This document shows positions 12,220 through 37,954 of a DNA stretch of 64,000 nucleotides, one piece after another. The position numbers and the translations under genes were made by a program. Position 1 is the stretch's first letter. Each line of letters opens with the position of its first letter. A model generated the notes under the pieces. That model saw only the letters and a program-made list of their open reading frames with translations. It had not been told where the DNA came from and made no database searches. This stretch comes from Thermopolyspora flexuosa (GTDB lineage Bacteria; Actinomycetota; Actinomycetes; Streptosporangiales; Streptosporangiaceae), in assembly GCF_006716785.1 (NCBI RefSeq), contig NZ_VFPQ01000001.1, positions 1,798,001-1,862,000 of the forward strand. The letters are read 5' to 3'.

Positions 12220-12439
12220 GCGGCCCGCCCCGCCGGTTTGATCCGTACGCGGAGACGACCCGCCGCGACCCCGGGGCCACGGCGGGTGCCCGCCTGCACC
12301 ACGGCCCGTCGGCCCGGCGGGACACTCCGCGATCACGGATAACGAATCCATAACGTTGTTGGACCGTTCCGAGCGCCCACCCGGTCCCGTACGTCATGAG
12401 GTTGACTAAACCGCTTTACCGGAAGTCGAGGGATTGGGC

Positions 12440-15181: not shown

Positions 15182-15763
15182 TCGGCAAGGAACGTCCGGG
15201 CAGCGGGCCATGGGTGGGCGGCCGGAACGCCGGAGATGCGGATGGCGGGCGAGCGGCCTGAACCTGACGCCGCCATGACGCCAGGTCGAGTCAGCGGACG
15301 GCGGCCGCCCAAGCGAGCAGCAGGCCGATCCGGAACCGCCCGACCTGTCCGGGGCTCCACTGGGATGAGTTTCGGATGCGAGTACGGCGGCCTACTCGAC
15401 CGGCCCTGCCTGATCAAACATCTCAGGCCGCCCGGCACAACCGGACCGACGACTCCGGTGACCTGACCCTCTCCGGCGGCGGAGACGACGATCGCGCGGC
15501 TCGTCGTCGCGCCACCCCGGTTGTCGGGCCGCAAGATGCCCAGGCGTGATGCGGGCGGGCTGTAACGCGCTTTTCGAAACGCCCGGAAGGTGGGAGATGA
15601 GGGTGGATCCGGGTGTCATTTCCATGCCTTAGAGGATGTCCGAAAGCCTCTCGGATTTGGACATGAATCACAGTGGATAACCGTGGCCAATGGAGATTCG
15701 TGTGCGGATCGAAAGCTCTCTAGTGATGTCGGACCACCAACATGACAATGCTTCTGACTTTCG
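15182..15763. other. 582-bp spacer without a supported gene
   Basis: No frame here has convincing codon use or a ribosome site. The GC content falls from the left end towards 15,600-15,800, as expected for a promoter region serving the genes that follow. I see no tRNA, repeat or terminator with a T-run. Confidence 0.5.
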
Positions 15764-15803
15764 TTGACAGGCTATTGGGCCGTGGTCAGAATGCTTGTCA
15801 AGC
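15764..15803 (+). promoter_or_regulatory. Sigma-70-type promoter with an overlapping CTTG-T-CAAG dyad
   Basis: TTGACA at 15764-15769, a 17-base spacer and CAGAAT at 15787-15792 form one of the best promoters in the window. Directly behind the -10 box is GCTTGTCAAGC (15793-15803), an 11-base palindrome placed over the expected transcription start, an ideal repressor position. A sister site, ACTTGACAAGT, lies at 17421-17431. The promoter would drive the short ORF at 15844 and probably the RppA-like gene at 16136. Confidence 0.6.
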
Positions 15804-15843
15804 AATCGAAAAAGGCTGGCCGAGCGCCGGTTGAAGGGAGTGT

Positions 15844-15915
15844 GTGGCGATGGGCGGAGGGACCATTACGGTCGACGAGATCTGCCCACACCTATTCCGC
15901 GGGTATTCCCCTTAG
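15844..15915 (+). CDS. Possible 23-residue leader peptide
   Basis: A GTG at 15844, preceded by GAAGGGAG about 3-9 bases upstream, opens a 23-codon frame that ends in TAG at 15913. The peptide contains GGGTITVDEICPHLFRGYSP. It begins about 45 bases after the predicted transcription start of the promoter at 15764. It may be an upstream ORF that affects translation of the RppA-like gene 220 bases further on, or an unrelated chance frame. No family is recognised. Confidence 0.3.
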   Translation: MAMGGGTITVDEICPHLFRGYSP

Positions 15916-16135
15916 CGTCACCCATATCGACCGGGAATAACTCCCGCGAGTAGGATCGTCACCCTTTCCCCGCGCCCGCCGGCACGCCACGGGCCGTGAA
16001 AACGGCAGGGGCTTCGGATAAGCGGGCTTCACACAGCGTACCGAACCGGCATTGCCGTGCCCGGCCATCGGTCACTTTCGATATGGCCGTATCCGACCGA
16101 TCGGCTCGCCGAGCGAACGACCGTGGTGGTGACCC

Positions 16136-17359
16136 GTGCCGATACTGTGCAAGCCCGCAGTCGCCGTACCCGAACACGTGGTCACGTGCGAGCAGACCCT
16201 CGCGCGGTACGCGGACCGGTACCGCGACCATCCGCGGCTCGGCCTCGTCCTGCGGCTCGTCGCCGAGGCCGGGGTGGCGCGCCGGCGCCTGCTGCCGCCC
16301 GACGAACGTACGCCCGGCATCCCCGGGCGGGACGCACGGGAGCGCCACGAGGAGCAGGTGCGGTCCCGCCTGCCGGCCGTGGTGCGCCGGGCGCTGGCGA
16401 ACGCGGGCCTGGGCCCCGGCGACATCGACGCGCTGGTCTGGGCCTGCGCCGACGCGATCGCCCCGGTGCCGCCCGCGCGGATCGCGGAGTGGACCGGGAT
16501 CCGCCCGGGCGTCACGCGGCTGCCGGTGGTCCCTGCCGGCGGCACGACGGGGATCGCCGCGCTCAAGCGGGCCTGCGCGTTCTGCGCCGCGCACCCCGGC
16601 GCCAACACCCTCGTCGTGACCTGCGCGTTCGACTCCCTGCGGCCGCCGGCCGCCGACCCGGGCGTCGGCGACCTGCTCGCCCGGGCGGTGCACGGCGACG
16701 GCATCGCCGCGGCCGTGGTCCGCGGTCACGGCGGCACCGGCGTCGACGTGCGGTACCTGAGCCCCGGCCCGCGGCTCGCACCGGTGCCCGGCATCGCCGG
16801 CCGTACCGGCGCGGGCGGGCGGTCGCGCCGCGACGGCCGATGGCCGTGCACGCCGGGCCGTACCCTGGCCCGTCACCTGCTCGGCCACGGCTGGACGGCG
16901 GCCGACCTTGACCTGTGCGTGCTGCACGCCGACTCCCCGCGCGCCCTGGACGGCCTCGCGGAAAGCCTCGGCCTCGCGCCCGAGACGGTCCGGGCGAGCC
17001 GGGAGACGCTCGGCGAGTACGGCGACATCGGCGGCGCCACGATCCTCGACGCGATCCGCCGGGCGGCCGAGTCGGTCGTGCCGCGCGACGGGGCGAAATG
17101 CCTGGTGGCCGGGTTCGGCCGGGGCGTCGCCGAGGTCGTGCTCGGCACCTGGGCGACGGCGCCCGCGCCCCGCGGCGTCCGGCCGCCGGTCCGTGCCGAG
17201 CCCGCACCGGTGCGGCTCGTCGGCGTCGGTGGAAGGGCACCGGGCGACCGGGTACGCGCCTGCGCGGGGCATGCGTCGCGGCCGCGCGGCCGTACGGGCG
17301 GCCGGCGGGCCTGCCACGAGCGGGACGACCCGCACGGACCGCCCCGCCCCCGGGCCTGA
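16136..17359 (+). CDS. RppA-like type III polyketide synthase homologue lacking catalytic Cys and Asn
   Basis: The 407-residue product follows RppA (tetrahydroxynaphthalene synthase) from its first residues (LCKPAVAVPEHVVTCEQTL) through GANTLVVTCAFDSLRP and GDGIAAAVVRGHGGTGV to the end of the fold. RppA reads LPIAQLGCAAGG where this protein reads LPVVPAGGTTGI at equal length, so Gly136 stands at the nucleophilic Cys. His264 (CVLHADSP) is kept. Asp297 (YGDIGG) replaces the Asn of the triad (RppA Cys138/His270/Asn303), and GFGPG has become GFGRG. Thiolase-type condensation is therefore unlikely; a binding, scaffold or regulatory role is possible. Residues 345-407 are an Arg/Pro-rich addition. 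The 16136 start code ATG-equivalent is GTG. The SMR gene follows. Confidence 0.8.
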   Translation: MPILCKPAVAVPEHVVTCEQTLARYADRYRDHPRLGLVLRLVAEAGVARRRLLPPDERTPGIPGRDARERHEEQVRSRLPAVVRRALANAGLGPGDIDALVWACADAIAPVPPARIAEWTGIRPGVTRLPVVPAGGTTGIAALKRACAFCAAHPGANTLVVTCAFDSLRPPAADPGVGDLLARAVHGDGIAAAVVRGHGGTGVDVRYLSPGPRLAPVPGIAGRTGAGGRSRRDGRWPCTPGRTLARHLLGHGWTAADLDLCVLHADSPRALDGLAESLGLAPETVRASRETLGEYGDIGGATILDAIRRAAESVVPRDGAKCLVAGFGRGVAEVVLGTWATAPAPRGVRPPVRAEPAPVRLVGVGGRAPGDRVRACAGHASRPRGRTGGRRACHERDDPHGPPRPRA

Positions 17360-17420
17360 GCCGGCACCACCGACCGAACCACACTCACAGGACACGGCAT
17401 GACCCTGTTATTTACAAACC

Positions 17421-17431
17421 ACTTGACAAGT
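17421..17431. promoter_or_regulatory. CTTG-A-CAAG dyad upstream of the SMR gene
   Basis: ACTTGACAAGT is a palindrome with 5-base arms around one A. It lies in a short AT-rich stretch after the RppA-like gene. The core CTTGWCAAG is the same as at 15793-15803. A weak promoter (TTTACA at 17411, TGTTAT at 17433, spacer 16) overlaps it, so a regulator could control both this transcript and the RppA-like one. Confidence 0.4.
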
Positions 17432-17511
17432 TTGTTATGGATGTTGGCCGGAATCGCGTCGGCCGAATCCCGGCCGAGACGTCCATACGCCGTGGGAAAG
17501 GCGATGCGAGG

Positions 17512-17592
17512 ATGAACGAGAACAGACGCATCTACCGGCTCGCCGAGCCGGAAACGGTCCCTGCCGGAATCGACCCGAGCCCCGCGCTCTGA
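17512..17592 (+). CDS. Possible 26-residue leader peptide before the SMR gene
   Basis: An ATG at 17512 opens a 26-codon frame (MNENRRIYRLAEPETV to a PSPAL end) that stops 8 bases before the SMR start. GGGAAAGG lies about 10 bases upstream. Its place, size and hydrophilic composition fit a leader peptide that couples translation into the transporter gene. It may also be a chance frame in the 5-prime leader. I looked for a guanidine riboswitch, common before SMR genes, and could not recognise one. Confidence 0.35.
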   Translation: MNENRRIYRLAEPETVPAGIDPSPAL

Positions 17593-17600
17593 CCCCGGCC

Positions 17601-18638
17601 ATGGCCTGGTTCCTGCTCGCGTGCGCGATTCTCACGGAGATCGCGGCCACCACCGCGCTGAAATACACGAACGGGCTCAACATCTTCACGCACACGTTTC
17701 TCACCATCATGGTGGTGGTGCTGTACATCACCTCGTACGTGTGCATGGCCCAGGCGTTGAAGCTCCAGCTCGAGGTCTCCATCGCCTACGCCCTGTGGTC
17801 CGGAATCGGCACCGCGGCGATCGCCGTGATCGGCGCCATATTCTTCCGTGAGTCCGTGCACCCGGTGAAGATCGGCGGCATCGCCCTGATCATCGTGGGC
17901 GTGGCGATGCTCAACCTCGTGCCCGACGCCACCCACGGCACGGCCGCGGCCGACCAGACCGGCGCGGTCCGTCCCGCCACGAACGTGGCCCTCGCCCAGG
18001 CCCTCACCGGCCTGACCGTCACCGTGGGCCGCCACCGCGCCTTCATCGGCTCGGCGTACCGCACGGGCCCGGTCCGCCCGGACGGCGACGGGTACGGCCG
18101 GCACGGCCGCCACGCCAGGACCGCCTGGGGCGGGCACGCCACGGCCCGGACCGCGGGCCTCGGCGACCAGGCAACGACCGGCGTCACCGGACGGCACCTG
18201 CTCCGGCCGCGGGTACTCGCGCTCCCGGCCCCGCCGCCCGACGACCACGCGCTCCCCGTTCGGAACGTTCCAAACCATCCCGAGCCCACCCCCGTGGGCC
18301 GGCACCGGGCCTTGGCCCCGGCCGCGCACGGCCACGACCTCCACGGGCTGGTGGTGGGCGCGGGGTACGAGACGGCGCACCTGGCCGAGGCCGCCGCCCT
18401 CCCCGCCCCCGCGCCGGTGTACTCGCCGCCCGCCGCGCGCGCCGCCGACCCGGTGCCGCACCGCCGTACCGGCGCCGCCTCCGGCCACGACGACGAGGTC
18501 GTGGTCGAGCCCGCCGCCGTCCAGCCGCCCGCCGCCCCGCTCGCCGCGCTGCCGCCGCGCCGCCGTGACCCCATCAAGGGCGTCACCCTCCTGCACCCCT
18601 ATCCCGACCGCCCCGCGGTCCGAACCCGTTCCGCCTAG
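17601..18638 (+). CDS. Small multidrug resistance (SMR) transporter with a 235-residue C-terminal extension
   Basis: Residues 1-108 are a complete four-helix SMR protein of the EmrE/QacE/SugE class. The proton/substrate-coupling glutamate is Glu13 (ILTEIAATTALKYT), AYALWSGIGTA near residue 61 is the typical helix 3 motif, and KIGGIALIIVGVAMLNL is helix 4. SMR proteins work as antiparallel dimers that export cations or guanidinium. Family members normally end near residue 110. Here 235 more residues follow, rich in Ala, Pro, His and Arg with RTGPVRPDGDGYGRHGRHA and no membrane segment, ending KGVTLLHPYPDRPAV. The tail should be cytoplasmic or external depending on topology, which is dual in this family, so the extension may force one orientation. 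Codon use in the tail stays GC-rich. Confidence 0.8.
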   Translation: MAWFLLACAILTEIAATTALKYTNGLNIFTHTFLTIMVVVLYITSYVCMAQALKLQLEVSIAYALWSGIGTAAIAVIGAIFFRESVHPVKIGGIALIIVGVAMLNLVPDATHGTAAADQTGAVRPATNVALAQALTGLTVTVGRHRAFIGSAYRTGPVRPDGDGYGRHGRHARTAWGGHATARTAGLGDQATTGVTGRHLLRPRVLALPAPPPDDHALPVRNVPNHPEPTPVGRHRALAPAAHGHDLHGLVVGAGYETAHLAEAAALPAPAPVYSPPAARAADPVPHRRTGAASGHDDEVVVEPAAVQPPAAPLAALPPRRRDPIKGVTLLHPYPDRPAVRTRSA

Positions 18639-18840
18639 CCAGGCACGACCGGCCCACACCGTTCGGCTTGAGCGGAAATTTCGGAATTCGACCCCCTGGG
18701 CCCGTACGACGTCGTCGACGGGTCCCGTTGTTTTCCCGCGAATTGTCTTCCGGTAATGCCATCATGGGGCCGGGCAAAGAATCGGGAAGGTTTCCCTCTG
18801 GCCATCGGCTGGTTCCGGCGGGCACGAAGGCGGGAGTGAA

Positions 18841-27036: not shown

Positions 27037-29046
27037 GTGGGACAAGACCTGGCGCTCGAGGCAGCACCGAAAAGGCCCGGCGGGCGCGACGGCACACGTC
27101 GCGGGCCCGATGACCGGGGCGCGGAGATTCCGCGCGCCACGACGGTGGCGCAATTGGACCTTGAACCCGGCGTGCCGGAGATCGCGGCCGCTTTCGGAAT
27201 GGGCCGCGCCTCGGCGTGCCTGCGGCGGGCGATCGCCGGCGGCGCGCCCACGGACGAGGACGGTACGGCCGGCGATGCCGTACCCTCCGGCGTCCCCGTG
27301 CAGGGCGCCGCGGCCGAGGCGATGTCCGCGGACTGCGGACCGGCGCTGACACCCGAGCACGCCGCGGCGCTGCGCGCGATCCTGCTCGGCGAGCGCACCG
27401 AGGCCGCCGGGACCGCGGCCGCCCGGCGGCCGTGGACGACCGAGGACGTGCGTGACCTGCTCGCCCGCGAGTTCGGCGTGCGCACCACCGCCGACGGCGC
27501 GCAGGCCGCGCTGGGCACGCTCGGCCTGTGGCCGGACCGGCCGCCGCGCCGCCCGCACCATGCCACCGACGCCGCCTGGGCCGCCACCGAGCTGCCGCGC
27601 ATCCGCGAGCGCGCGGCGGCCGAGGGCGCTCGGCTGTACCTGGTGGAGGACACCCTCGTCGGCGACGGCACGCTGTGGCTGTTCACCGCGTCCCCGATGT
27701 ACGGCCCGCGGCGGTTCGCCCTCTACGACCCGGCCCGCGAGGGCGGCGACGACCACCACCGGTTCCTGGCCGACTTCCTCGAACGGCTCGCCCGGCGGCC
27801 CGGCCCGCCCGCGCACGTCGTCCTCGAGCCGCTGCCCGCCGAGGACGCGCGGGCCGTGACCGCCCTCGCCGACGCCTCCCAGGGGCGGCTGCGCGTGCAC
27901 TTCCTGCCCGACGCCCTCCTGCGGCTGGAGCGCCTCACCGCGCTGTGGCGCGCGTCCCACGAGGCGACCGACCGGCGGGCCCGGGAACGCGACGAGGCCG
28001 CCCGCGTCCACCGGGACGCGAAGGCCGCCGAGGAACGGCTGCGGCTGGAACGCGACCGGGCGATCCGCGGCTGCCGCGACGCGGGCATCCCGGTCGCCGA
28101 GCTGGTCGAGCACACCGGACTCGCCCCCAAGACCATCTACGACGCGCTCGACCGGACAACCGCGCCCGGCCCGGACGAGGAGGCCGGGGCCGCCCCCGTC
28201 ACGCTGCGGCGGCAGCGGCTCGCCCGCCTCGACGCGGCGTTCGCCGCCTGGCGCCGCGCCGCCGACGCGGTACGCGAGCACGCCCGCGAGCGCGAGGAGG
28301 TCGTCGCCGCCTACCGCACCGCGCGGGCCGTCGAGGAGCGGCTGCGGCGCCGCCGGGACGACGCGATCGCCGCCTGGCGCGCCACCGGCGTCGCGGCGAC
28401 CGCGATCGCCGCCCGCACCGGCCTGTCGATCGGGCTCATCTCCCAGATCGCGGGCAGGCGCCCGGCGGCCGAGGCCGCGGCCCGGCACGGCGTGGCGAAC
28501 CGCCTGCTCGCCGAGCTGGAGCGGGCCGGCGCGCGCTGGCGCGAGGCGACGGCGGCGACCGAGGAGCGGGCCCGCGCCCGCCGGGAGGCGGTCGACGCCT
28601 GCCGCGCCGCCCGGGCGGCCGAGCAGCGGCTGCGCGCCCGGCGCGACCGGGTGATGCTCGCCTGCCAGGCGGCGGGCATCCCTGCCCCGGACATCGCGCT
28701 CTGCGCCGGTCTCGACGTGTCCACGGTCTACCAGACGCTGCGCGTGCACCGGATCGAGCCGCGCGACCTGCCCCGCGTCGACCGGGTACGGCTGATGAGC
28801 CGCCTGCGCGAGGTGTCCCGCCGCTGGCGGCGCGCCGCCGACGCGGTCCGCGAGTCGGTACGGCTGCGCGACGAGGCGATCCGGGCCTGGCGGGCGAGCC
28901 GCGCCGACGAGGAGGCGGCACGCCGGGAGCGGGACCGGGCGATCGCCGAATGCCGCGCCGCCGGCATCGGGGTGAACGTGCTCGCCGCGTGCACCCGCCT
29001 CGACCTGAGCACCGTCTACGGGGTCTGCCAGGCCGCCGGGGCCTGA
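27037..29046 (+). CDS. Domesticated IS630-like transposase remnant fused to four coiled-coil/HTH modules
   Basis: The product has 669 residues. Residues about 30-200 recall the N-terminal part of IS630/Tc1 transposases: LTPEHAAALRAILLGER, then PWTTEDVRDLLAREFGVRT, a winged helix, and WAATELPRIRERAAAEGA. Residues 198-305 follow the DDE fold (ARLYLVEDTLV, AHVVLEPLPAEDA, RVHFLPDALLRLERLTALWR), but the usual D in VVLD is Glu or lost and the N-P-x-E motif is absent, so transposition is unlikely. Four 70-residue modules follow (303-371, 400-473, 497-569, 593-665). Each has a basic coiled coil (EERLRLERDRAI) ending in an HTH such as GLDVSTVYQTL. The protein looks like a host-recruited DNA-binding or chromosome-organising factor. 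The GTG start lacks a clear ribosome site. No terminal inverted repeats are seen. Confidence 0.55.
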   Translation: MGQDLALEAAPKRPGGRDGTRRGPDDRGAEIPRATTVAQLDLEPGVPEIAAAFGMGRASACLRRAIAGGAPTDEDGTAGDAVPSGVPVQGAAAEAMSADCGPALTPEHAAALRAILLGERTEAAGTAAARRPWTTEDVRDLLAREFGVRTTADGAQAALGTLGLWPDRPPRRPHHATDAAWAATELPRIRERAAAEGARLYLVEDTLVGDGTLWLFTASPMYGPRRFALYDPAREGGDDHHRFLADFLERLARRPGPPAHVVLEPLPAEDARAVTALADASQGRLRVHFLPDALLRLERLTALWRASHEATDRRARERDEAARVHRDAKAAEERLRLERDRAIRGCRDAGIPVAELVEHTGLAPKTIYDALDRTTAPGPDEEAGAAPVTLRRQRLARLDAAFAAWRRAADAVREHAREREEVVAAYRTARAVEERLRRRRDDAIAAWRATGVAATAIAARTGLSIGLISQIAGRRPAAEAAARHGVANRLLAELERAGARWREATAATEERARARREAVDACRAARAAEQRLRARRDRVMLACQAAGIPAPDIALCAGLDVSTVYQTLRVHRIEPRDLPRVDRVRLMSRLREVSRRWRRAADAVRESVRLRDEAIRAWRASRADEEAARRERDRAIAECRAAGIGVNVLAACTRLDLSTVYGVCQAAGA

Positions 29047-29421
29047 CCGCCACCCCGCTTCCGGATTGTCCTGACCGTATTTGACATCATTGGTTAATCA
29101 GGACCTGACTAAAGAAGTTGGGTTTTGACTTAACGGAACCGTGCCGGACACAATCAGAGAGCGATCGACAACACCCACCTCTATAGAGAACTCAACCCCG
29201 CCATCACCTTTCTGAGCTGGGCACTTGCATATTTTCCGGTGATCGTGCAGCATGCGTTCCGTGGGGATGCCAAGCGTCGCTCAAATACAGCCCGGCCGAC
29301 GGACGAAAAACTTCCCGGACCCGTGTGCGAGTTCCGGATGGAGAAGGTTCTCGTGCGATTAACGGGGGTACCGGTGAGCCATCGCCGTTCCGCCGTGGCG
29401 GATGAGTAAGGAGTAACGGCG
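29047..29421. other. 375-bp spacer with a possible promoter
   Basis: A possible promoter for the next gene is TTGACT at 29126-29131 with CACAAT at 29150-29155 (18-base spacer). It would leave a leader of about 260 bases. TTGACA at 29079 has no matching -10 box. The stretch is AT-richer than both neighbours. A good AAGGAG ribosome site lies at about 29406. Confidence 0.4.
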
Positions 29422-30657
29422 ATGAGCGACTGGAGGTCGTCAGAGGGGTGGAGGTTGATCCCGGACTCCCGGACTCCTGACCCTCCGGACGGTGAACCCG
29501 GTCCGTGGCGGGACCGGTCCGGCGCCGTGATGCACGGCGTCTACGAGCGCGTGTTCCGCGCGGTCGAGTCCGGCCGCCCCGCGTACGTGGAGGGCGTGGC
29601 GGCCTGGCACGGCAGGCGGCTGTGGAGTTGGAGCGGTCCGGAGATGCCGCGCTTCCGCGACCCGCGGGTGAGTCCCTGGAACCCGATCCTCGCCCAGGGC
29701 CTGCGCGCCGAGGACGCCGAGCACACCCCCTACCGCACCCCGTCGTGGTGCGACGAGTGGATCGCCGACGCGCTGCTGCGCAACCTCAAGCCGTACGGCC
29801 GGTTCGCCCTGCCGTACAAGGCGGCGATGGACTGGTGCGCCGAGGCCGGCCGGGCCGGGCTCGTGTACCGTGCCACCCCCGAGACCGCGAGCGGCGACGC
29901 CTCCGACGGCGCCGACCGCCGGTTATACATCGTCGCCGCGATCACCCAGACCTACGGGGAGGCGTTCGACCTCGACGCGCTCATCGCCGACTACCAGGAC
30001 GCGCTGCCCGAGGAGCTGGCGGAGCCGCAGATCGACGCGCTGCAGCGGCACCGCGACCAGTCCATCGCCCTGCGCTACGTTCTCGCCGACGACGCCGACG
30101 AACGCTTCTGGGCGGCCCCGCGAGCGGTGCGGGGTCTGACCCTCGGCTACCCTCCCACCGCAACCGCCGCGCGCATCCTCGCCGAGGCCGAGCCGGCCGC
30201 CGGGTCCCCGCACCCCCGGCGCCCGTACGGTCCGGTCGCCACCGGTCCGCTCGGCGGTCCCGGCCACCCCCTCGGCAACGGCAGAACGAACGGACCGCAG
30301 ATGATCAGAGTCCCCGAGTGCCGGCACCCCGGGCGCCCGCACGCCCGTGTCGCCGACATGACGCCCACCACCTTCGCCACCATCAGCCGCTGGATCGACC
30401 GCAGCTGGCCGGTCGACATGCCCCGGGGGACCCACCCCGGCAGCCCCGCCGAGCTGGAGCGTTTCGGCTACCTCATCGCGATCGCCTACCGCGCGTACGT
30501 GAGCAGCGATCCGGTGCTGCGCGTGCCGATCTCCGACGACCCCGACGCCGAGGGCGAGCTGCACCGGTACGTGTGCTGCCTGCTGCGCGGCATGTCGAAG
30601 GACCCCCGCGAGATCCATCTCGACGCGCTGTACGCCCGCAGGATGGCCTGGAGCTGA
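29422..30657 (+). CDS. Unknown 411-residue protein containing a TTA leucine codon
   Basis: The ATG at 29422 follows AAGGAG with good spacing. The protein is soluble and acidic, with Trp/Arg-rich N-terminal text (WHGRRLWSWSGPEMPRFRD), a middle helix region (PEELAEPQIDALQRHRDQSI), a Pro/Gly linker near residues 255-295 and a second ordered part from about 310 (TISRWIDRSWPVDMPRGTH to LHRYVCCLLRGMSKDP). No family is recognised. Codon 168, at 29923-29925, is TTA, which is rare in such a genome; in Streptomyces TTA codons place genes under control of the bldA tRNA, but whether that applies in this organism is unknown. Confidence 0.65.
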   Translation: MSDWRSSEGWRLIPDSRTPDPPDGEPGPWRDRSGAVMHGVYERVFRAVESGRPAYVEGVAAWHGRRLWSWSGPEMPRFRDPRVSPWNPILAQGLRAEDAEHTPYRTPSWCDEWIADALLRNLKPYGRFALPYKAAMDWCAEAGRAGLVYRATPETASGDASDGADRRLYIVAAITQTYGEAFDLDALIADYQDALPEELAEPQIDALQRHRDQSIALRYVLADDADERFWAAPRAVRGLTLGYPPTATAARILAEAEPAAGSPHPRRPYGPVATGPLGGPGHPLGNGRTNGPQMIRVPECRHPGRPHARVADMTPTTFATISRWIDRSWPVDMPRGTHPGSPAELERFGYLIAIAYRAYVSSDPVLRVPISDDPDAEGELHRYVCCLLRGMSKDPREIHLDALYARRMAWS

Positions 30658-30665
30658 CCCCGCGC

Positions 30666-30706
30666 GGCCCTCGCCCGGCCGCCCCACGGCCCGCCGGGCG
30701 AGGGCC
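30666..30706. terminator. Hairpin between convergent genes
   Basis: GGCCCTCGCCCGG at 30666-30678 pairs exactly with CCGGGCGAGGGCC at 30694-30706 around a 15-base loop. There is no T-run, but the perfect 13-bp stem lies between two convergent genes and probably ends transcription in both directions, as is usual in high-GC actinobacteria. Confidence 0.6.
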
Positions 30707-30710
30707 GGAG

Positions 30711-32138
30711 TCAGGCCGCGGACAGGCCGCTCGCCTGCGCCACCCCGCGGCTCGCCTCGAGCTGGGCGCACAGCGACAGCAGCGTGCCCTCCTCGCCCCA
30801 CCGGCCGGTGAGCATCATCCCGATCGGCAGGCCCTCGGCCGACCAGTACAGCGGCAGCGTCACGCTCGGGCGGCCGGTCAGGTTCGCCTCGGCGGCGAAC
30901 GGCGAGAACGCCTTCATCCGCGCGAACGTCTCGGCCGGGCCCACCCCGTCGGTGAACCAGCCGATCGGCGGGGGCTGCTGCGCCAGCGTCGGGGTGAGCA
31001 CCACGTCCACCGCGGCCTCCTGGCACAGCATCGCGTCCCGCATCGCCCGGTCCAGCTCGGCGTGCGCCCGGACCACCTCCAGCCCGGCGGCGAGCCGGCC
31101 CATGCCGCGCAGCCACGAGGTGAGCGGCCGCAGCTCGCGGGCGTGCGCGGCCCGCACCGTGTGCAGCCGGGCCATGGTGAACCACAGCACGTCGAGGATG
31201 CGGTCGCCCTCCGGGCCGAGCACCGGGGCGGTCTCCACCAGCTCGTGGCCGAGCGACTCCAGCAGCCGGCAGGTGCGCTCGAACGCCGCCCGCACCTCAG
31301 GGTCGGGCGTGACGCCCGGCACCGGCGACACCGCGGTGACCCCGATCCGCAGCCGCCCCGGGTCGCGGGCGACGCAGTCGAGGAACGAGGTCCCGTCGCG
31401 CGGCGCGGTCCACTCCGGGCCCTCGCCGCCGCCGGACAGCACGTCGAGCAGCGCGGCGGCGTCGGCGACCGTGCGGGCCACCACGCCCGGCACGGTCAGC
31501 CCGAACGGGTCGGGCGTGAAGATCCCCGCCGGCACCCGGCCGCGGGACGGCTTGACCCCCACCACCCCGCACGCCGAGGCGGCCACCCGCACCGCGCCGA
31601 GCCCGTCCACGCCGTGCGCCACCGGGGCGAGGCCCGCCGAGGCCGCCACCGCGGCCCCGCCCGCCGCGCCGCCCGCGGACCGGCCGGGCGCCCACGGGTT
31701 CCGCGCGGGCGGCGCCACGTCGCTCTCGGTGAAGCAGGCCAGCCCGAACTCGGAGGTGGTGGTCTTGCCGAGCAGCACCGTGCCCGCCTCGCGGAGCCGT
31801 ACCACCACCGGGTCGTCGACCGGGGCGACCAGCTCGCGGTAGGCGGCCGAGCCGAGCGTGAGCCGTACGCCCTTGACCGGGGTGAGGTCCTGGACCGGGA
31901 CCGGCACGCCGAGCAGCGGCGGCAGCTCGTCGGGGGACGCGGCCTGCAGCACCAGCCGCTCGGCCCGCCGCGCCTGCCGCAGCGCGAGCTCCGCGGTGAC
32001 CGTGACGTACGCGCCCGTGGTGGCGTTGAGCGCGGCCACGCGCCCCAGGTAGTGCTCGGCGATCTCCACGGGGGACAGCACGCGGGAGCGTACGGCGGCG
32101 GCCAGCTCGAGCGCGGACAGCTCGTGGATCTGCGGCAT
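30711..32138 (-). CDS. Amidase-signature family protein that has lost its Ser-cisSer-Lys triad
   Basis: The ATG at 32138 follows GGAGG; the product of 475 residues is full length for GatA-like amidases. LLGVPVPVQDLTPVKG, NPWAPGRSAGGAAGGAAV and HGVDGLGAVRVAASACGVVG can be aligned without gaps to the family patterns GVPxxVKD, GGSSGG and G-x-D-x-G-G-S-I-R. The three catalytic residues are replaced: Lys by Gln83, cis-Ser by Ala158 and nucleophilic Ser by Ala182. Hydrolysis of amides by the standard mechanism is therefore not expected. The fold, including GVKPSRGRVP and the C-terminal PIGMMLTGRWGEEG, is well preserved, so selection seems to maintain it. It lies 20 bp after an MFS gene and probably shares its transcript; a binding or sensing role is possible. 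Confidence 0.8.
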   Translation of the reverse strand: MPQIHELSALELAAAVRSRVLSPVEIAEHYLGRVAALNATTGAYVTVTAELALRQARRAERLVLQAASPDELPPLLGVPVPVQDLTPVKGVRLTLGSAAYRELVAPVDDPVVVRLREAGTVLLGKTTTSEFGLACFTESDVAPPARNPWAPGRSAGGAAGGAAVAASAGLAPVAHGVDGLGAVRVAASACGVVGVKPSRGRVPAGIFTPDPFGLTVPGVVARTVADAAALLDVLSGGGEGPEWTAPRDGTSFLDCVARDPGRLRIGVTAVSPVPGVTPDPEVRAAFERTCRLLESLGHELVETAPVLGPEGDRILDVLWFTMARLHTVRAAHARELRPLTSWLRGMGRLAAGLEVVRAHAELDRAMRDAMLCQEAAVDVVLTPTLAQQPPPIGWFTDGVGPAETFARMKAFSPFAAEANLTGRPSVTLPLYWSAEGLPIGMMLTGRWGEEGTLLSLCAQLEASRGVAQASGLSAA

Positions 32139-32158
32139 CTCGGCCTCCGGGGGAACGG

Positions 32159-33988
32159 TCAGCGCGCGCCCGCCTCGGCGGGGGACGGGTCGGACGACAG
32201 CGGGTCCGGCAGCTCGGCCGGCTCGAACGTGTGCGGGTCGGCGACCTCCTGGCGCAGGAAGCGGCCGGTGGACGGCTCGATCAGCCACACCCCGCCCTCC
32301 GCGTCGCGGACGGTGAGCCGGGCAAGGTGGCGCAGCGTGTGGCTCGGCGGCAGGTAGCCGTCGTCGAGGCTGCGGCGCAGCGCGAGCGCCGCCAGGTAGA
32401 GCGTCTGGAGCTGGGGGTGGATGAGCCGCTTGCCGGTGCGCGGGCTGGTACGGGCGCGGGACCGGGCGGGCTGGTGCGGCAGCCACCAGGCGACCGTGAG
32501 TGCGGCGGCGAGCGCCACCGCGGCGGCCACCCAGGCGGCGACGCTGAGCGCGTGCGCGTACGCCGCGGTGCTCCGGGTGAGCAGGTCGGCCGCCTCGCTC
32601 TCCGGCATGTGCGCGGCGAGCCGTACGGTGACCGCGACGTTGCCGAGCGCCGCCTCCCGGCCCTCGGCGGGCACGAGCGAGGCGGCCGGGGTCATGCCGC
32701 CCGCGTACACGATCCGGGCGAGGCAGCCGAGCACCGCCACGCCGAGCGCGCCGCCCGCCTGCCGGGCGGCGTCGCCGATCGCCGCGGCCACGTTCGCGTG
32801 CGCCAGCGGTACGGCCCGCAGGGTGGCCTCGGTGGTGGTGCGCATCGCCATCGCCATGCCGCAGCCGCCGACCGCGAGGGCCACCGCGAGCTGGCCGTAC
32901 CCGGAGGCGGCGGTGGTCGAGCCGAGCATCGCCATCGCCGCGGCGATGAGCATGAGGCCGAGCACGGCCGGGGTCTTCTCGCCGTCCCGCCCGGCGAGCC
33001 ACGCGGCGAGCAGCAGGCCCGCGAGCAGCCCGGCGGCGAGCGGGAGCAGGTGCAGGCCCGCCTCGAGCGGCTCCATGGCGAGCGTGGTCTGCAGGTGCTG
33101 CACCACCACGAACAGCGCGCCGAACAGGCAGAACCAGGTGAGCGCGATCGCGGTCATCGCGGCGGCGAACCGCGGGCCGTGCAGCAGCCGGATGTCGACC
33201 AGCGGCCGGGGGCCGCGCGCCCGCAGCGCGAGCCCGATCAGCGAGACCGCGGCGGCGCCCGCGATCCCGAGCACCACCGGATCGGTCCAGCCGCGCGCCG
33301 GGCCCTCGATGATCACCCAGACCAGGCCGGTGAGGGCGGCGATGCCGAGCATGACGCCGAGCGGGTCGAGCGCGCCGATGTCCGGGTTGCGGGAGGCGGG
33401 CACGAGGATCGGCACGATCACCAGGGCGAGCAGGCAGATCGGCACGTTGACCAGCAGGATCGAGCCCCACCAGAAGTTCTCCAGCACCCAGCCGCCCACC
33501 GCCGGGCCGGCCGCCACGCCCACGCCGATGCCCGCCGACCACACGCCGACCACGCGGGCCCGCTCCCGCCGGTCCGGGAACAGGTCGACGAGCAGGGACA
33601 GCGCCGACGGCATGATCATCGCGGCGCCGACGCCCATCGCGGTGCGGGCGGCGATCAGCGGGCCGACCGAGTCGACCTGGGACCCGGCGAGGGACGCGAG
33701 CGCGAACAGGGTGAGGCCGAGCACGAGCACCGGACGGCGGCCGAGGCGCTCGCCGAGCCGGCCGGCGGGCAGCAGCAGCGCGGCGAGGGCGATCGTGTAG
33801 GCGTCGATCGCCCACTGCGCCTCGCTCGGGTCGGCGCCGAGCCGCCAGGTGAGCGAGGGGACCGCGATGTGCAGCACGGTCTGGTCGAGGCCGACGATCA
33901 CCTGGGCGAGGCACAGCACGGGGAGCGCCATCCAGCGGCTGCGGCGCGGCGCTGCGGATCGGGGCGGGACAGGGGCCGGGTCGGTCAT
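32159..33988 (-). CDS. DHA2-type (14-TM) MFS exporter with a C-terminal cytoplasmic extension
   Basis: The 609-residue product has the EmrB/QacA pattern: LDQTVLHIAVPSLTWRLGAD in helix 1, RLGERLGRRPVLVLGL motif A, AGIGVGVAAGPAVGGWVLE motif C in helix 5 and 14 hydrophobic segments to about residue 510. Members use proton motive force to export drugs or metabolites. Residues about 520-609 are extra and hydrophilic, with TSPRTGKRLIHPQLQTLYLA and a domain that could bind a partner. The ATG at 33988 is at the left end of a leftward operon with the amidase-like gene. No dedicated regulator lies beside it. Confidence 0.85.
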   Translation of the reverse strand: MTDPAPVPPRSAAPRRSRWMALPVLCLAQVIVGLDQTVLHIAVPSLTWRLGADPSEAQWAIDAYTIALAALLLPAGRLGERLGRRPVLVLGLTLFALASLAGSQVDSVGPLIAARTAMGVGAAMIMPSALSLLVDLFPDRRERARVVGVWSAGIGVGVAAGPAVGGWVLENFWWGSILLVNVPICLLALVIVPILVPASRNPDIGALDPLGVMLGIAALTGLVWVIIEGPARGWTDPVVLGIAGAAAVSLIGLALRARGPRPLVDIRLLHGPRFAAAMTAIALTWFCLFGALFVVVQHLQTTLAMEPLEAGLHLLPLAAGLLAGLLLAAWLAGRDGEKTPAVLGLMLIAAAMAMLGSTTAASGYGQLAVALAVGGCGMAMAMRTTTEATLRAVPLAHANVAAAIGDAARQAGGALGVAVLGCLARIVYAGGMTPAASLVPAEGREAALGNVAVTVRLAAHMPESEAADLLTRSTAAYAHALSVAAWVAAAVALAAALTVAWWLPHQPARSRARTSPRTGKRLIHPQLQTLYLAALALRRSLDDGYLPPSHTLRHLARLTVRDAEGGVWLIEPSTGRFLRQEVADPHTFEPAELPDPLSSDPSPAEAGAR

Positions 33989-34148
33989 CGTGGCGGCTCG
34001 CTCCGGGACTCGGGGTTCGGGGACGGGGCGACGGGGCCGGTCGGCTACGGCGTGCCGCGGCGGCGGGCCGGGTCCGGTGCCGGTACGGCCGCCGCGGGCT
34101 GCGGGGGACGGCGGCCGTACCGGCCTTTACTGCGATCTTTACAAGTGG

Positions 34149-34508
34149 TCATGTACGGCACGTCCTGCGGGTCTCGCTGATCGACCTGACGTTCGCGCCG
34201 CGGTAGCTCTCGTATTTCCAGGGGAGCCGGAAGGTGTGCTGGCGGCCCGGGGGCAGGCAGGTGCCCACCCGGGTCTGCGGGCGGTCGTAGGTGACCTTCA
34301 CGTACCTGCCGGTGGAGCACCGGTTGCGGACCACGGTGAGTCCGGCCGCGCCGCCGGCGGGCGGGACGTGCCGTACCAGGTGCACGCAGGCGGGCGTGGG
34401 TTTGCCCGCCTTGGGGGCGGCGGCCGGGGCGGCGGCGATCAGCGCGCCCGTGGCCGCCAGGGTCAGTCCCAGCGCGGTGCCGGCCCTCGCCAGGTTCCGA
34501 CTGGTCAT
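34149..34508 (-). CDS. Small secreted four-Cys protein, distantly tendamistat-like
   Basis: The ATG at 34508 yields 119 residues; the frame extends further upstream but without a signal. Residues 1-31 are a signal peptide (RAGTALGLTLAATGALIAA, cleavage after APAAA). The mature part has four cysteines (PACVHL, NRCSTG, GTCLPPG, RRTC). The first-to-second and third-to-fourth spacings, with YVKVTYDRP and CLPPGRQHTFRL between, recall the two-disulfide beta sandwich of Streptomyces alpha-amylase inhibitors. The inhibitory Trp-Arg-Tyr triplet is absent. The fold assignment is tentative; secretion is well supported. Confidence 0.65.
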   Translation of the reverse strand: MTSRNLARAGTALGLTLAATGALIAAAPAAAPKAGKPTPACVHLVRHVPPAGGAAGLTVVRNRCSTGRYVKVTYDRPQTRVGTCLPPGRQHTFRLPWKYESYRGANVRSISETRRTCRT

Positions 34509-35367
34509 CGTCGCTCTGTCCTTGCCGTTGAACGGGTCGTGCCCGGGTGCCGGGGCCCGGGGCTGGTCGTCGGGACTCGGGCTTCCGGGATGGTTTCCGG
34601 GATGGTCGAGACGCGGATGGCGCACGCAGGGGGTTCGGGGGAGGAGGGGCGGATCCGCCGGCGGCGGGACCATCCCGGTGATCCGCTCCGCCCGGACGGG
34701 CCGGGGCGGAGTGCCGGCCGGCGGATCCGCGGCTCCGCGGGAAGGGGCCCTTCGCCGGCCCCCTCCTCGGGTGAGTTCTGCGCGGCTTTCGCCGATTTCG
34801 GAGCATAGGCAGGGTCGATTAACCGGGGAATACCCGTTATCAACTCGTTACCCTGACAAAAAGTTATGGCACGGGTTTTCGCTGGAAGCGGGCTTTGGAC
34901 CGGGCCGGGGCCGGGAGAATCACCGGGGGTGGAACCTGGTTTTCGGCTCGGCCGTATCCGGATGCCTCGCCAGGGCTGGGCCTGTGAGCTGCGGCTGGTC
35001 ACAGCAGCATCAGTTTCCTCACTACTTGTCAGAAGACTTGTAAAGACGCATGAAGGTATTACGAATTGGTCACGACAGGGTCGGCCTATATCATCTCGGG
35101 CTTGATTTATTTACTCTCGACTGTGGGTTGACAAACCCAGTCAAGAAACTTGATGACCTTGTGAGGTGTGCTGCCGGGCCGGGCGGCCGCACCGCCGTAC
35201 GGCGCCCTGCGCGGCCCTCGGCCGGGCTCCCGTGCCCGCCGCCCCCGTCGAGGAAATCTCGGCGCGGTCCCCGACGGGGGCGGCGTACCCCGGCACCGGG
35301 CCCACCGCGGACGACCGGCCGTGCGACCCGGGGGCGGCGATCCCCCTGGCCAGAGAGGACGGAGACC
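34509..35367. other. 859-bp spacer with a possible promoter for the isochorismatase-like gene
   Basis: The part 34,800-35,160 is clearly AT-richer than its surroundings. TTGACA at 35128-35133 with TGATGA at 35151-35156 (17-base spacer) may drive the gene at 35368. Two small dyads overlap it: GGGTT-gaca-AACCC at 35125-35138 and TCAAG-aaa-CTTGA at 35141-35153. No gene with a ribosome site was found in the spacer. Confidence 0.4.
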
Positions 35368-36273
35368 ATGGCGATCCTGCCCATCGACCCCTACGTCATC
35401 CCGGACGACCTGCCCGAGAACCGGGTGGCGTGGCGGCCCGATCCCCGCCGGGCCGTACTGCTCGTGCTCGACATGCAGAACTACTTCCTGCGGGTGTTCG
35501 CGCGCTGGGGCGCGCCGTGGCGGGAGCTGATGGCGAACTGCCTCGCGCTGCGCGAGCACTGCGCGGACAACGGCATCCCGGTGGTGTACTGCGTGCAGCA
35601 CGCCCGGCAGACCCCGGAGCAGCGCGGCCTCACCCGCGACTTCTGGGGGCCCGGCATCGGCGCCGACCCGGCCGACGCGCAGATCGTCGACGAGCTCGCG
35701 CCGCGCCGGGGCGACATCCGGATCAACACCTGGCGGTACAGCGCGTTCCAGCGCACCGGGCTCGCCGGCCTGCTCGAGGACCTCGGGCGCGACCAGGTGA
35801 TCATCTGCGGGGTGTACGCCCACCTCGGGGTGCTGCTGACCGCGTGCGAGGCGTTCATGCGGGACCTGGAGACGTTCGTGGTGAGCGACGCGGTCGCCGA
35901 CTTCTCCGTGGAGCACCACCGCATGGCGCTGCACTACGCCGCCCAGCGCTGCGCCGTCGTGCTGCCGACCCGTGACGTCATCCACACCCTCGCCTCGCAG
36001 ACCGCCGCCGCCGAGGCCTCCGACCTCGGCCTCGCCCGCGCCCGCCAGGCGTCGCTCGCCCGCCGCGAGGCCGCCGCCCGGCAGGAGGCCGCGGTACGGC
36101 GTGAGCGCCAGCTGCGCCGCGAGGCGCTCGCCCGGCAGAGCCGCCTCGTCAACCACGACATCGTCGTCCACCGCGGGGACTTCTCCGCCGAGGGGCGCAA
36201 CGGCCGGGCGCTGCAGAGCGCGGGGCCCGCGTTCCACGGCCGCCCGCCGTACCTCGACGACCAGAGCGCGTGA
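35368..36273 (+). CDS. PhzD/EntB-type isochorismatase homologue lacking the catalytic Lys
   Basis: The ATG at 35368 follows GGACGGAG; the product has 301 residues. Residues 10-205 match PhzD and the isochorismatase part of EntB along their length: [16 protein letters not shown] with Asp35, [47 protein letters not shown], and [20 protein letters not shown]. In the family the residue before WRYSAF is the catalytic Lys; here it is Thr121 ([10 protein letters not shown]). Hydrolysis of the vinyl ether of isochorismate is therefore doubtful. Residues 206-301 are an added basic, helical tail ([20 protein letters not shown]) that may bind nucleic acid or coil with a partner. It lies 298 bp before a P450-like gene that also lacks its key residue. 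Confidence 0.8.
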
Positions 36274-36571
36274 CGCCCGCCGGGCGTCGCGTCCGGCGAA
36301 CACGGTGCGCGGGCGGGTCGCGGGCGTCTCGCCGCCCGAGGCCGATCGGTGTCCGAACCGGCCGCGCTCGCACGCCGGGTCAGGGCGTACGGGGGCTGCG
36401 ACGCGCCTGACCACGCCACCGGGCATCGGCCCGGCGGTGCCCCCGACGGCGAAGGCGGGTGCGTACGGGGGAATCGGGTTTCGTGAAGGTCTTGCCACGC
36501 CCCGTGGCGCGCGCACGGGGCACCGTCCTCACCCGCCGGTACGGTCACCGACACCGCCACAAGGAGAGGCC

Positions 36572-37954
36572 ATGACCACCGCCGCCATGCCGGCCGCCGA
36601 TGTGGACCTGTTCGCCGACCCCGTGCTGGCCGACCCCTACCCCGCCTACCGCGTGCTCCGCGACGCGGGCCCCGCCGTGTACCTGCCCGGGTACCGCGTC
36701 TGGGTCCTCGCCCGTGATCGGGAGGTACGGCACGCCCTCGACCACCCCGAGGTCTTCGCCGCCACCCGTCCCGCGGGCCTGTTCGACGGCCTCACCGCGG
36801 GTGAGGCGGTTCGAGCGCCGGCCTGGCCTGCGTGCGGTCACGCGCGAGCCCGGTCCGTCGACGGCCGTCCGGGCGAGCCGGCTCAGCGTGCCGCGGGAGG
36901 CCTCCTCGGCGGTGCCGTACCGGCCCACCGCGTGCCGAGTGATCCGGCCGAGCCGTCGGCCTGTGCGCCCGGCGCAAGGTCCTGGGACGAGTCACTGCGT
37001 ACGATCGCCGCCCACCGGAGCCTGCGTACCTTCGCCGGCCTGCAGGCGTTCATCACCGACCAGGCGGAGCGTATCGTCGACGACCTCGTCGCCTACGGCT
37101 CCTTCGACGCCGTCACCGAACTGGCGCACCGGTTTCCGCTCAAGACGATCGGCACCCTGATCGGCCTCCCCGCCGAGAGCCGCCCCGACCTGCTGCTCTG
37201 CGCCGAGGCGTCACTCCAGGCCCACGGCCCGCTGGACGACCACACCGTCCGCGCCCTGCTGGACCTGGAGCACGTCTTCGCCCTCCTCGTCGCCGAACTT
37301 GCCGCCGCCCGCGCCCCGGAACCCGCGGTCCTCCCCACACCCACCGCGTCCGTCACCGCCCCGGTGCGCCGCGGCGGCGGCACCACCCCTCCCGACACCT
37401 TTGCCGCCCCGCCTTCCGGCGACGTCCTGGGACAGGCCGCGATCGCGCACCTGCTCAGCTCGTTCGCGATGCCCTGCGTCCACACCGTCGCCGCCGGCCT
37501 CACCGGCATGCTGTGGCTCCTCGCCACCCACCCCGGGGCCTGGCACGCCCTGCGCGCCGACCCGTCCCTGGTCCCCGCAGCCGTCGAGGAGTCCCTCCGC
37601 CTGGAAACCCCGGTTCAGACCTGCGCCCGCACCACCACCCGCGACGTCCGCATCGGCGACGCCCTCATCCGGGAAGGCGAACGCGTCCTGCTCCTCCTCG
37701 GCGCCGCCAACCGCGACCCCCGCAAGTGGCCCGCCCCCGACCGTTTCGACCCCCACCGCAACCCCACCGGCCACTTCGTCAACGGCACCCAGCCCACCTT
37801 GGCCAGAGCTTTGGCGAAGGTGCACCTGTGCGCCGTCCTCGACGCCCTCGCCCGCAGGGCCTCGCACCTCTACCTCGACGGCCGCCCCCGCCGCCGCCTC
37901 ACCGTCGGCACCCGCACCTTCGCCTCCCTGCCGCTCTACGTCTCCGCCGGTTGA
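36572..37954 (+). CDS. Cytochrome P450-like protein without the heme-ligand Cys
   Basis: The ATG at 36572 follows AAGGAGAGG; the product has 460 residues. P450 landmarks are clear: DLFADPVLADPYPAYRVLRD at the N-terminus, GSFDAVTELAHRFPLKTIGT, the ExxR motif Glu340-SLR in VEESLRLETPVQTCARTTT, GERVLLLLGAANRDP and a meander with PDRFDP. In the heme-binding loop, where the pattern is FGxGxHxCxG, the sequence is FVNGTQPTLARALAK, so Thr409 replaces the thiolate Cys. The I-helix AGxET is replaced by MPCVHT. The segment 75-140 does not resemble the usual DPPEHTRLR region. Heme binding in the normal way is not expected. DNA codon bias is normal, so it is not an obvious pseudogene, but decay cannot be excluded. 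Confidence 0.75.
   Translation: MTTAAMPAADVDLFADPVLADPYPAYRVLRDAGPAVYLPGYRVWVLARDREVRHALDHPEVFAATRPAGLFDGLTAGEAVRAPAWPACGHARARSVDGRPGEPAQRAAGGLLGGAVPAHRVPSDPAEPSACAPGARSWDESLRTIAAHRSLRTFAGLQAFITDQAERIVDDLVAYGSFDAVTELAHRFPLKTIGTLIGLPAESRPDLLLCAEASLQAHGPLDDHTVRALLDLEHVFALLVAELAAARAPEPAVLPTPTASVTAPVRRGGGTTPPDTFAAPPSGDVLGQAAIAHLLSSFAMPCVHTVAAGLTGMLWLLATHPGAWHALRADPSLVPAAVEESLRLETPVQTCARTTTRDVRIGDALIREGERVLLLLGAANRDPRKWPAPDRFDPHRNPTGHFVNGTQPTLARALAKVHLCAVLDALARRASHLYLDGRPRRRLTVGTRTFASLPLYVSAG

Follow-up and report, generated by a model that had tools for sequence, protein, structure and literature searches.

An amidase-signature protein without its catalytic triad, encoded beside an exporter gene, looks like a maintained pseudoenzyme

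Within the 64,000-nucleotide stretch of Thermopolyspora flexuosa DNA analysed here (the window), a protein of the amidase-signature (AS) family, P0002, carries Q83, A158 and A182 in place of the Ser-cisSer-Lys triad by which an active AS amidase is recognised. We propose that P0002 is probably a paralogue of an actinobacterial AS amidase that is dead as a catalyst but has been maintained (Table 1). An initial annotation of the same DNA had assigned an AS protein of 475 residues to positions 30711-32138, and this assignment held, on the minus strand, where the frame comprises 476 codons including the stop; a plus-strand reading as an amidase was ruled out, as its translation differs from amidase. 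Residues 25-454 of P0002 match the whole Pfam PF01425 profile (1-445 of 445 positions; 268 bits, cut-off 27), and this full-length AS domain, together with the fold, places P0002 in the AS family by descent. With 166.6 bits against NCBIfam TIGR00132 (GatA; cut-off 481.1), P0002 does not qualify as a GatA, and it fell below the model's own cut-off for every NCBIfam model among 25 of the 26 matched, including GatA and many amidase models. The AS domain is its sole Pfam match, so it is not a TPR fusion of the Toc64 type.

Table 1. Features at and around the pseudo-amidase locus, with positions in the window.
Feature	Position	Strand	Remarks
AS-family pseudoenzyme P0002, 475 aa	30711..32138	(-)	Q83, A158, A182 and A159, A186
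DHA2-type MFS exporter, 609 aa	32159..33988	(-)	20 bases upstream of the pseudo-amidase, same strand
Conserved protein, 411 aa	29422..30657	(+)	Convergent with the pseudo-amidase; no Pfam/NCBIfam match
Small protein, signal-like start (by eye)	34149..34508	(-)	Upstream of the MFS gene; no Pfam match (scanned as 34149-34673)
PhzD-like isochorismatase fold lacking the catalytic Lys, long C-terminal extension	35368..36273	(+)	Alignment
CYP199-like P450 without haem Cys (Thr), I-helix acid is His	36572..37954	(+)	Alignment
Type III polyketide synthase fold, Gly for Cys, Asp for Asn, His kept	16136..17359	(+)	Comparison with 1u0m

In the alignment with its relatives, Q83, A158 and A182 of P0002 stand opposite the Lys, the cis-Ser and the nucleophilic Ser, respectively, and the motifs around them are free of gaps: GVPVPVQDL in P0002 corresponds to GVPVPIKDL in a relative, SAGGAAGG to SAGGSSGG, and DGLGAVRVAAS to DGAGSIRIPAS. 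The three substitutions and gap-free motifs described in the initial annotation were thereby borne out, and the multiple alignment of amidases it had suggested as a check did not place Lys and Ser elsewhere. Since the motifs align without gaps, a triad hidden elsewhere by misalignment was ruled out. Two near-invariant residues absent from the initial annotation, S159 and P186, are likewise Ala in P0002. Our triad survey started from 124 loci plus the query and yielded 120 distinct rows; as the query and locus L001 are one protein, 119 proteins were counted, and K/S/S was found in 117 of these 119 distinct AS proteins (P0002 included). The two exceptions, both Q/A/A, are P0002 and its 90% identical orthologue in a sequenced relative of the same genus (G001; the window's own genome is G000), and the codons at the replaced positions are CAG, GCG and GCG in both species. 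The scaffold residues of the AS signature, D178, G181 and R184, are the same in 120 of 120 aligned rows, with the signature serines gone in P0002. The G001 orthologue is identical to contig QGUZ01000211.1 of an actinobacterial metagenome-assembled genome, and since this separate assembly carries the same residues, a sequencing or assembly artefact was rejected. Leu180 was dropped as a pocket-filling change, as Leu occurs in 9 of the 120 rows, intact enzymes among them, and the change says little. Judged by its sequence, P0002 is almost certainly catalytically dead.

The losses extend beyond the triad. Of the P0002 columns, 96 are conserved to at least 97% among 50 intact relatives (a set that includes one exact duplicate pair, L111 and L016), and at 13 of these 96 the two pseudo proteins share one and the same replacement: columns 83, 129, 158, 159, 164, 167, 182, 186, 206, 241, 315, 466 and 471, the last two of which fall within the low-confidence tail of the P0002 structural model. 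Columns 166 and 172 are altered in one of the two proteins, and 83 of the 96 show no joint change in the pair. By a leave-one-out count, the intact relatives depart from these ultraconserved columns zero to six times each.

A tree of 59 proteins united the pseudo pair in one clade with support of 100/100; its stem measures 1.02 changes per site, and its tip branches 0.083 and 0.054. This long stem and the short tips indicate an old duplicate that changed much on the stem and little since. The sister group is a clade of 18 proteins, among them the intact paralogue from the window's genome (support 98/92 for the 18 and 100/98 for all 20), a position to be read with the caveat that long stems may be misplaced. 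In the distribution searches, matches at E 1e-147 occurred in 5 of 341 family genomes (best four candidates per genome); three of these matches fall outside the genus, and they show 54-56% identity and a K/S/S triad. No second lineage with triad losses was found among the best-match loci from 341 family genomes (E 1e-147), 396 phylum genomes (E 1e-90) and the best 80 of 104 relatives from a contig scan; as these searches examined best matches only, more distant cases could be missed. Among the best matches examined, the pseudo-amidase occurred in a single genus. Intact AS amidases from members of the same bacterial family, the paralogue included, share the protein family and fold and are about 45-56% identical to P0002 over near full length; unlike P0002, all those aligned carry K/S/S, and the flanks searched held no MFS gene of this kind.

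The intact paralogue (G000:C1:1234745-1236139) is 55% identical to P0002 and has an orthologue in G001. The presence of both copies in one genome would fit a regulatory pseudo-subunit, in which P0002 pairs or competes with the paralogue or another active enzyme and modulates its activity, and dead activating partners are known from actinobacterial pathways, as reported for EryCII and EryCIII (PMC3391682). The paralogue, however, is not part of the locus, from which about 0.6 Mb of the contig separates it, and the gene that adjoins P0002 is that of an exporter; we regard such a role as unlikely. As a separate observation, the G001 orthologue of the paralogue (L014) reads GGSGGG where GGSSGG is usual, and so misses the Ser beside the cis-Ser. 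Since the equivalent S167A variant of UMG-SP2 is reported to be inactive (PMC11967865), this copy may be impaired, or the reading may be a metagenome error.

A check suggested in the initial annotation, dN/dS on orthologues, was made by the Nei-Gojobori method for one species pair, G000 and G001. The pseudo-amidase gave 0.433 (bootstrap 0.292-0.622), well below 1, and the intact paralogue 0.437; the values were 0.247 for the MFS gene, 0.208 for the isochorismatase-like ORF and 0.186 for the 29422 ORF. The pseudo-amidase frame is 475 codons long in both species, with zero gaps. In neutral simulations that followed the fourfold-site substitution pattern, none of 300 runs was as low as observed, under two models each, for the pseudo-amidase, the intact paralogue, the MFS gene, the isochorismatase-like ORF and the 29422 ORF. 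Under a harsher model that allowed changes at G/C sites only, the pseudo-amidase showed 54 changes at codon positions 1 and 2 against 85 expected (P = 7e-5). Amino-acid differences between the two orthologues were scarcest in the signature region, residues 96-190 (6 of 47, compared with 11 of 57 in the intact paralogue). Fourfold sites themselves showed C-G exchanges about nine times as often as transitions (0.119 versus 0.013 per site) across five G000/G001 gene pairs, four in window positions 29422-36273 and one outside; this excess is what would be expected if third positions were held at G or C. Constraint on the pseudo-amidase is moderate, not strong (0.43), and has a thin basis in one species pair. 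Its full-length frame in both species, this dN/dS, the 0 of 300 simulations and the intact predicted fold together make P0002 look like a maintained pseudoenzyme, and we consider it quite probable that the gene is maintained. In the one pair compared, the losses precede the species split and purifying selection follows it.

The gene next to P0002 encodes an MFS protein that matches DHA2 drug-efflux models (214 bits for TIGR00711, under the cut-off of 230), and a GGAGG sits a few bases ahead of the pseudo-amidase ATG. Adjacency of the two genes in two species of one genus suggests that they could form an operon and that P0002 could be linked to export. The MFS protein has a C-terminal extension of about 101 residues, for which matches were found in G000 and G001 only, of 60 genomes. 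A search of the DNA around the intact homologues at loci L013-L055 and L111, covering about 1.5 to 10 kb on either side and less at some loci, turned up no such MFS gene; matches occurred only in the orthologous pseudo locus. Positions 28335-36321 are collinear with a G001 contig at 90% DNA identity. The protein of the convergent 29422 ORF is 93% identical in G001 and has matches in 52 of 338 family genomes. Two further observations concern the surroundings. Positions 11363-18736 are mostly collinear with G001:C427 and less conserved, at 76-84% DNA identity. At 27037-29046 on the plus strand, weak, below-cut-off matches to HTH_33 and DDE_3 precede what appear by eye to be about four repeats of a helix-turn-helix-like unit, and the protein looks like a domesticated transposase.

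New in this analysis, and absent from the initial annotation, are three other enzyme-fold ORFs with catalytic-residue losses, a polyketide synthase (PKS), an isochorismatase and a P450, within 22 kb of one another and of the pseudo-amidase. With P0002 they are the four enzyme-fold ORFs found with a Pfam match above cut-off at 16-38 kb, among the ORFs scanned; a HATPase-domain ORF at 41.3 kb lies outside this count. In the isochorismatase-like ORF, Thr (His in G001) occupies the position of the Lys before the RYSAF-type motif, a residue that is catalytic in PhzD. This Lys is present in 17 of 17 other homologues read, none of which has the long C-terminal extension in the alignment, and the genome's own second isochorismatase copy (L133) retains it. 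The catalytic residues of type III PKS enzymes are Cys, His and Asn, and the G001 orthologue of the PKS-like ORF shows the same Cys and Asn losses at 81% identity; the PKS and isochorismatase losses are thus common to both species, with a different isochorismatase replacement in each. The haem Cys is present in 10 of 10 other P450 relatives read (20 matches gave 12 loci, two of them the 36572 ORF and its G001 fragment), and the G001 contig stops ahead of the Cys position. Elsewhere in the window, an HsaD-like hydrolase, a BphC-like dioxygenase, an SDR epimerase and an aminotransferase retain their catalytic motifs by inspection (the aminotransferase Lys by alignment); this comparison comprises four enzymes, with the acyl-CoA dehydrogenase, glycosyltransferases and laccase-type protein of the window outside it.

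These clustered losses, which may widen the case from one gene to a whole locus, are the most surprising part of the data and stand as an observation without a genome-wide background rate or P value. Four enzyme folds of one stretch without catalytic residues could reflect the slow decay of a disused locus, in which GC-rich frames stay open and the losses are functionally meaningless. Consistent with this, residues of about 75-145 of the P450-like ORF do not match P450, and the start of the ORF shares only 77% DNA identity with G001, features which suggest that this ORF may be decaying; the PKS pair, moreover, contains three gap columns. Since the nearby P450-like ORF seems to be partly decayed, loss of function at the locus may be under way. 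Against decay, dN/dS is well under 1 and was not reached by any of the neutral simulations for the pseudo-amidase, MFS, isochorismatase-like and 29422 ORFs (PKS and P450 being outside the simulations), and the values for the PKS (0.46, 0.34-0.61) and for the first 80 codons of the P450-like ORF (0.45, 0.24-0.89, not clearly neutral) are also below 1. The pseudo-amidase is free of indels, and its 13 joint changes at ultraconserved columns include those at K83, S158, S159, S182 and P186. Slow decay of the locus appears improbable to us. A P450 homologue without the haem Cys has a precedent in DesVIII/EryCII, which is kept as a partner; EryCII lacks the Cys and activates EryCIII (PMC3391682). DesVIII and EryCII partner glycosyltransferases, whereas the 36572 ORF lies near an exporter and is less conserved. 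A bolder and rather doubtful possibility is that a whole biosynthetic-type locus (type III PKS, AS amidase, isochorismatase, P450 and exporter genes) has been converted to non-catalytic binding folds, with which the cell would sense, buffer or export a compound that is no longer made.

An AlphaFold2 model of P0002 reached a mean pLDDT of 91.8 and a pTM of 0.93; as 32 of the 34 sequences in its input alignment were intact enzymes, the other two being the pseudo proteins, it shows compatibility with the fold and not the state of the pocket. The initial annotation's picture of complete triad loss in an intact fold next to an exporter is supported by this model, by the 119-protein survey and by the MFS gene 20 bases upstream. 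The best Foldseek match was 3a2q (TM 0.87); VIA-align superposed 459 residues on this entry at 2.2 A with a Z of 51.3, which ties with GatA and further AS structures. NylA, the 6-aminohexanoate cyclic dimer hydrolase of 3a2p and 3a2q, is the closest solved relative of P0002 by sequence and among the closest structurally. The nucleophile motif is GSVRIPAS in 3a2p, GAVRIPAS in 3a2q and GAVRVAAS in P0002, so that the 3a2q chain, whose entry title describes a complex with substrate, shares with P0002 an Ala in place of the nucleophile. NylA is nonetheless an enzyme by entry name, and 3a2q swaps the nucleophile only, whereas in P0002 evolution has replaced the Lys and the two cis-Ser-pair serines as well as the nucleophile. 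Plant Toc64/OM64 has lost the catalytic Ser. Its AS-type domain belongs to a protein described as an import factor or receptor (PMC3877065, PMC9643744); unlike P0002 it is eukaryotic, has TPR and membrane parts, and serves protein import rather than small-molecule export. Among open-licence papers, our literature search found no amidase-signature pseudoenzyme (part of the search was judged by title, among the matches listed) and none on pseudoenzymes with lost catalytic residues in Streptomyces biosynthetic gene clusters.

The individual consequences of such losses can be gauged from UMG-SP2, for which it is reported that K91A is without any activity, that S167A, next to cis-Ser166, is inactive, and that S190A, also inactive, yielded a structure containing bound substrate (PMC11967865). 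The spacing from cis-Ser166 to Ser190, 24 residues, equals that from 158 to 182 in P0002, which combines all of the inactivating single losses given there. Different chemistry, a reaction catalysed in the P0002 pocket through other residues, is very improbable: the scaffold of D178, G181 and R184 is retained, but no new nucleophile or base is evident, Lys89 and Ser155 occur in many intact relatives too and so are not newly supplied substitutes, and UMG-SP2 is inactive after single loss of the Lys, the Ser beside the cis-Ser or the nucleophile (PMC11967865).

We favour instead a maintained, non-catalytic role for P0002. The loss of the Lys, of the two serines in the cis-Ser pair and of the nucleophile from an old duplicate would all fall on a single long stem branch that predates the split of the two species sampled; since then, as computed from one species pair, the gene has been under purifying selection. 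P0002 resembles the Ser-to-Ala mutants of AS enzymes that trap uncleaved substrate, and it may still close around an amide-like small molecule, or a protein partner. Co-expressed with the MFS exporter, it could buffer a compound or hand it over. The new binding role put forward in the initial annotation is a reasonable proposal. From sequence and gene order, the likeliest reading appears to be that P0002 acts in binding or as an adaptor in connection with the exporter, one in which our belief and doubt are about equal.

Pseudoenzymes are best known from eukaryotic signalling. Bacterial pseudokinases were called largely unexplored in a 2025 article (PMC12599244). P0002 offers a clean sequence-level case of total triad loss with measured constraint, for which the genome's intact paralogue provides an internal control and the adjoining exporter a lead to a possible ligand. 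If the clustered losses are functional, the idea of an abandoned pathway kept as a set of binding proteins becomes testable. P0002 and its neighbours, in two species of the same genus, suggest that old enzymes may be kept for binding rather than for chemistry.
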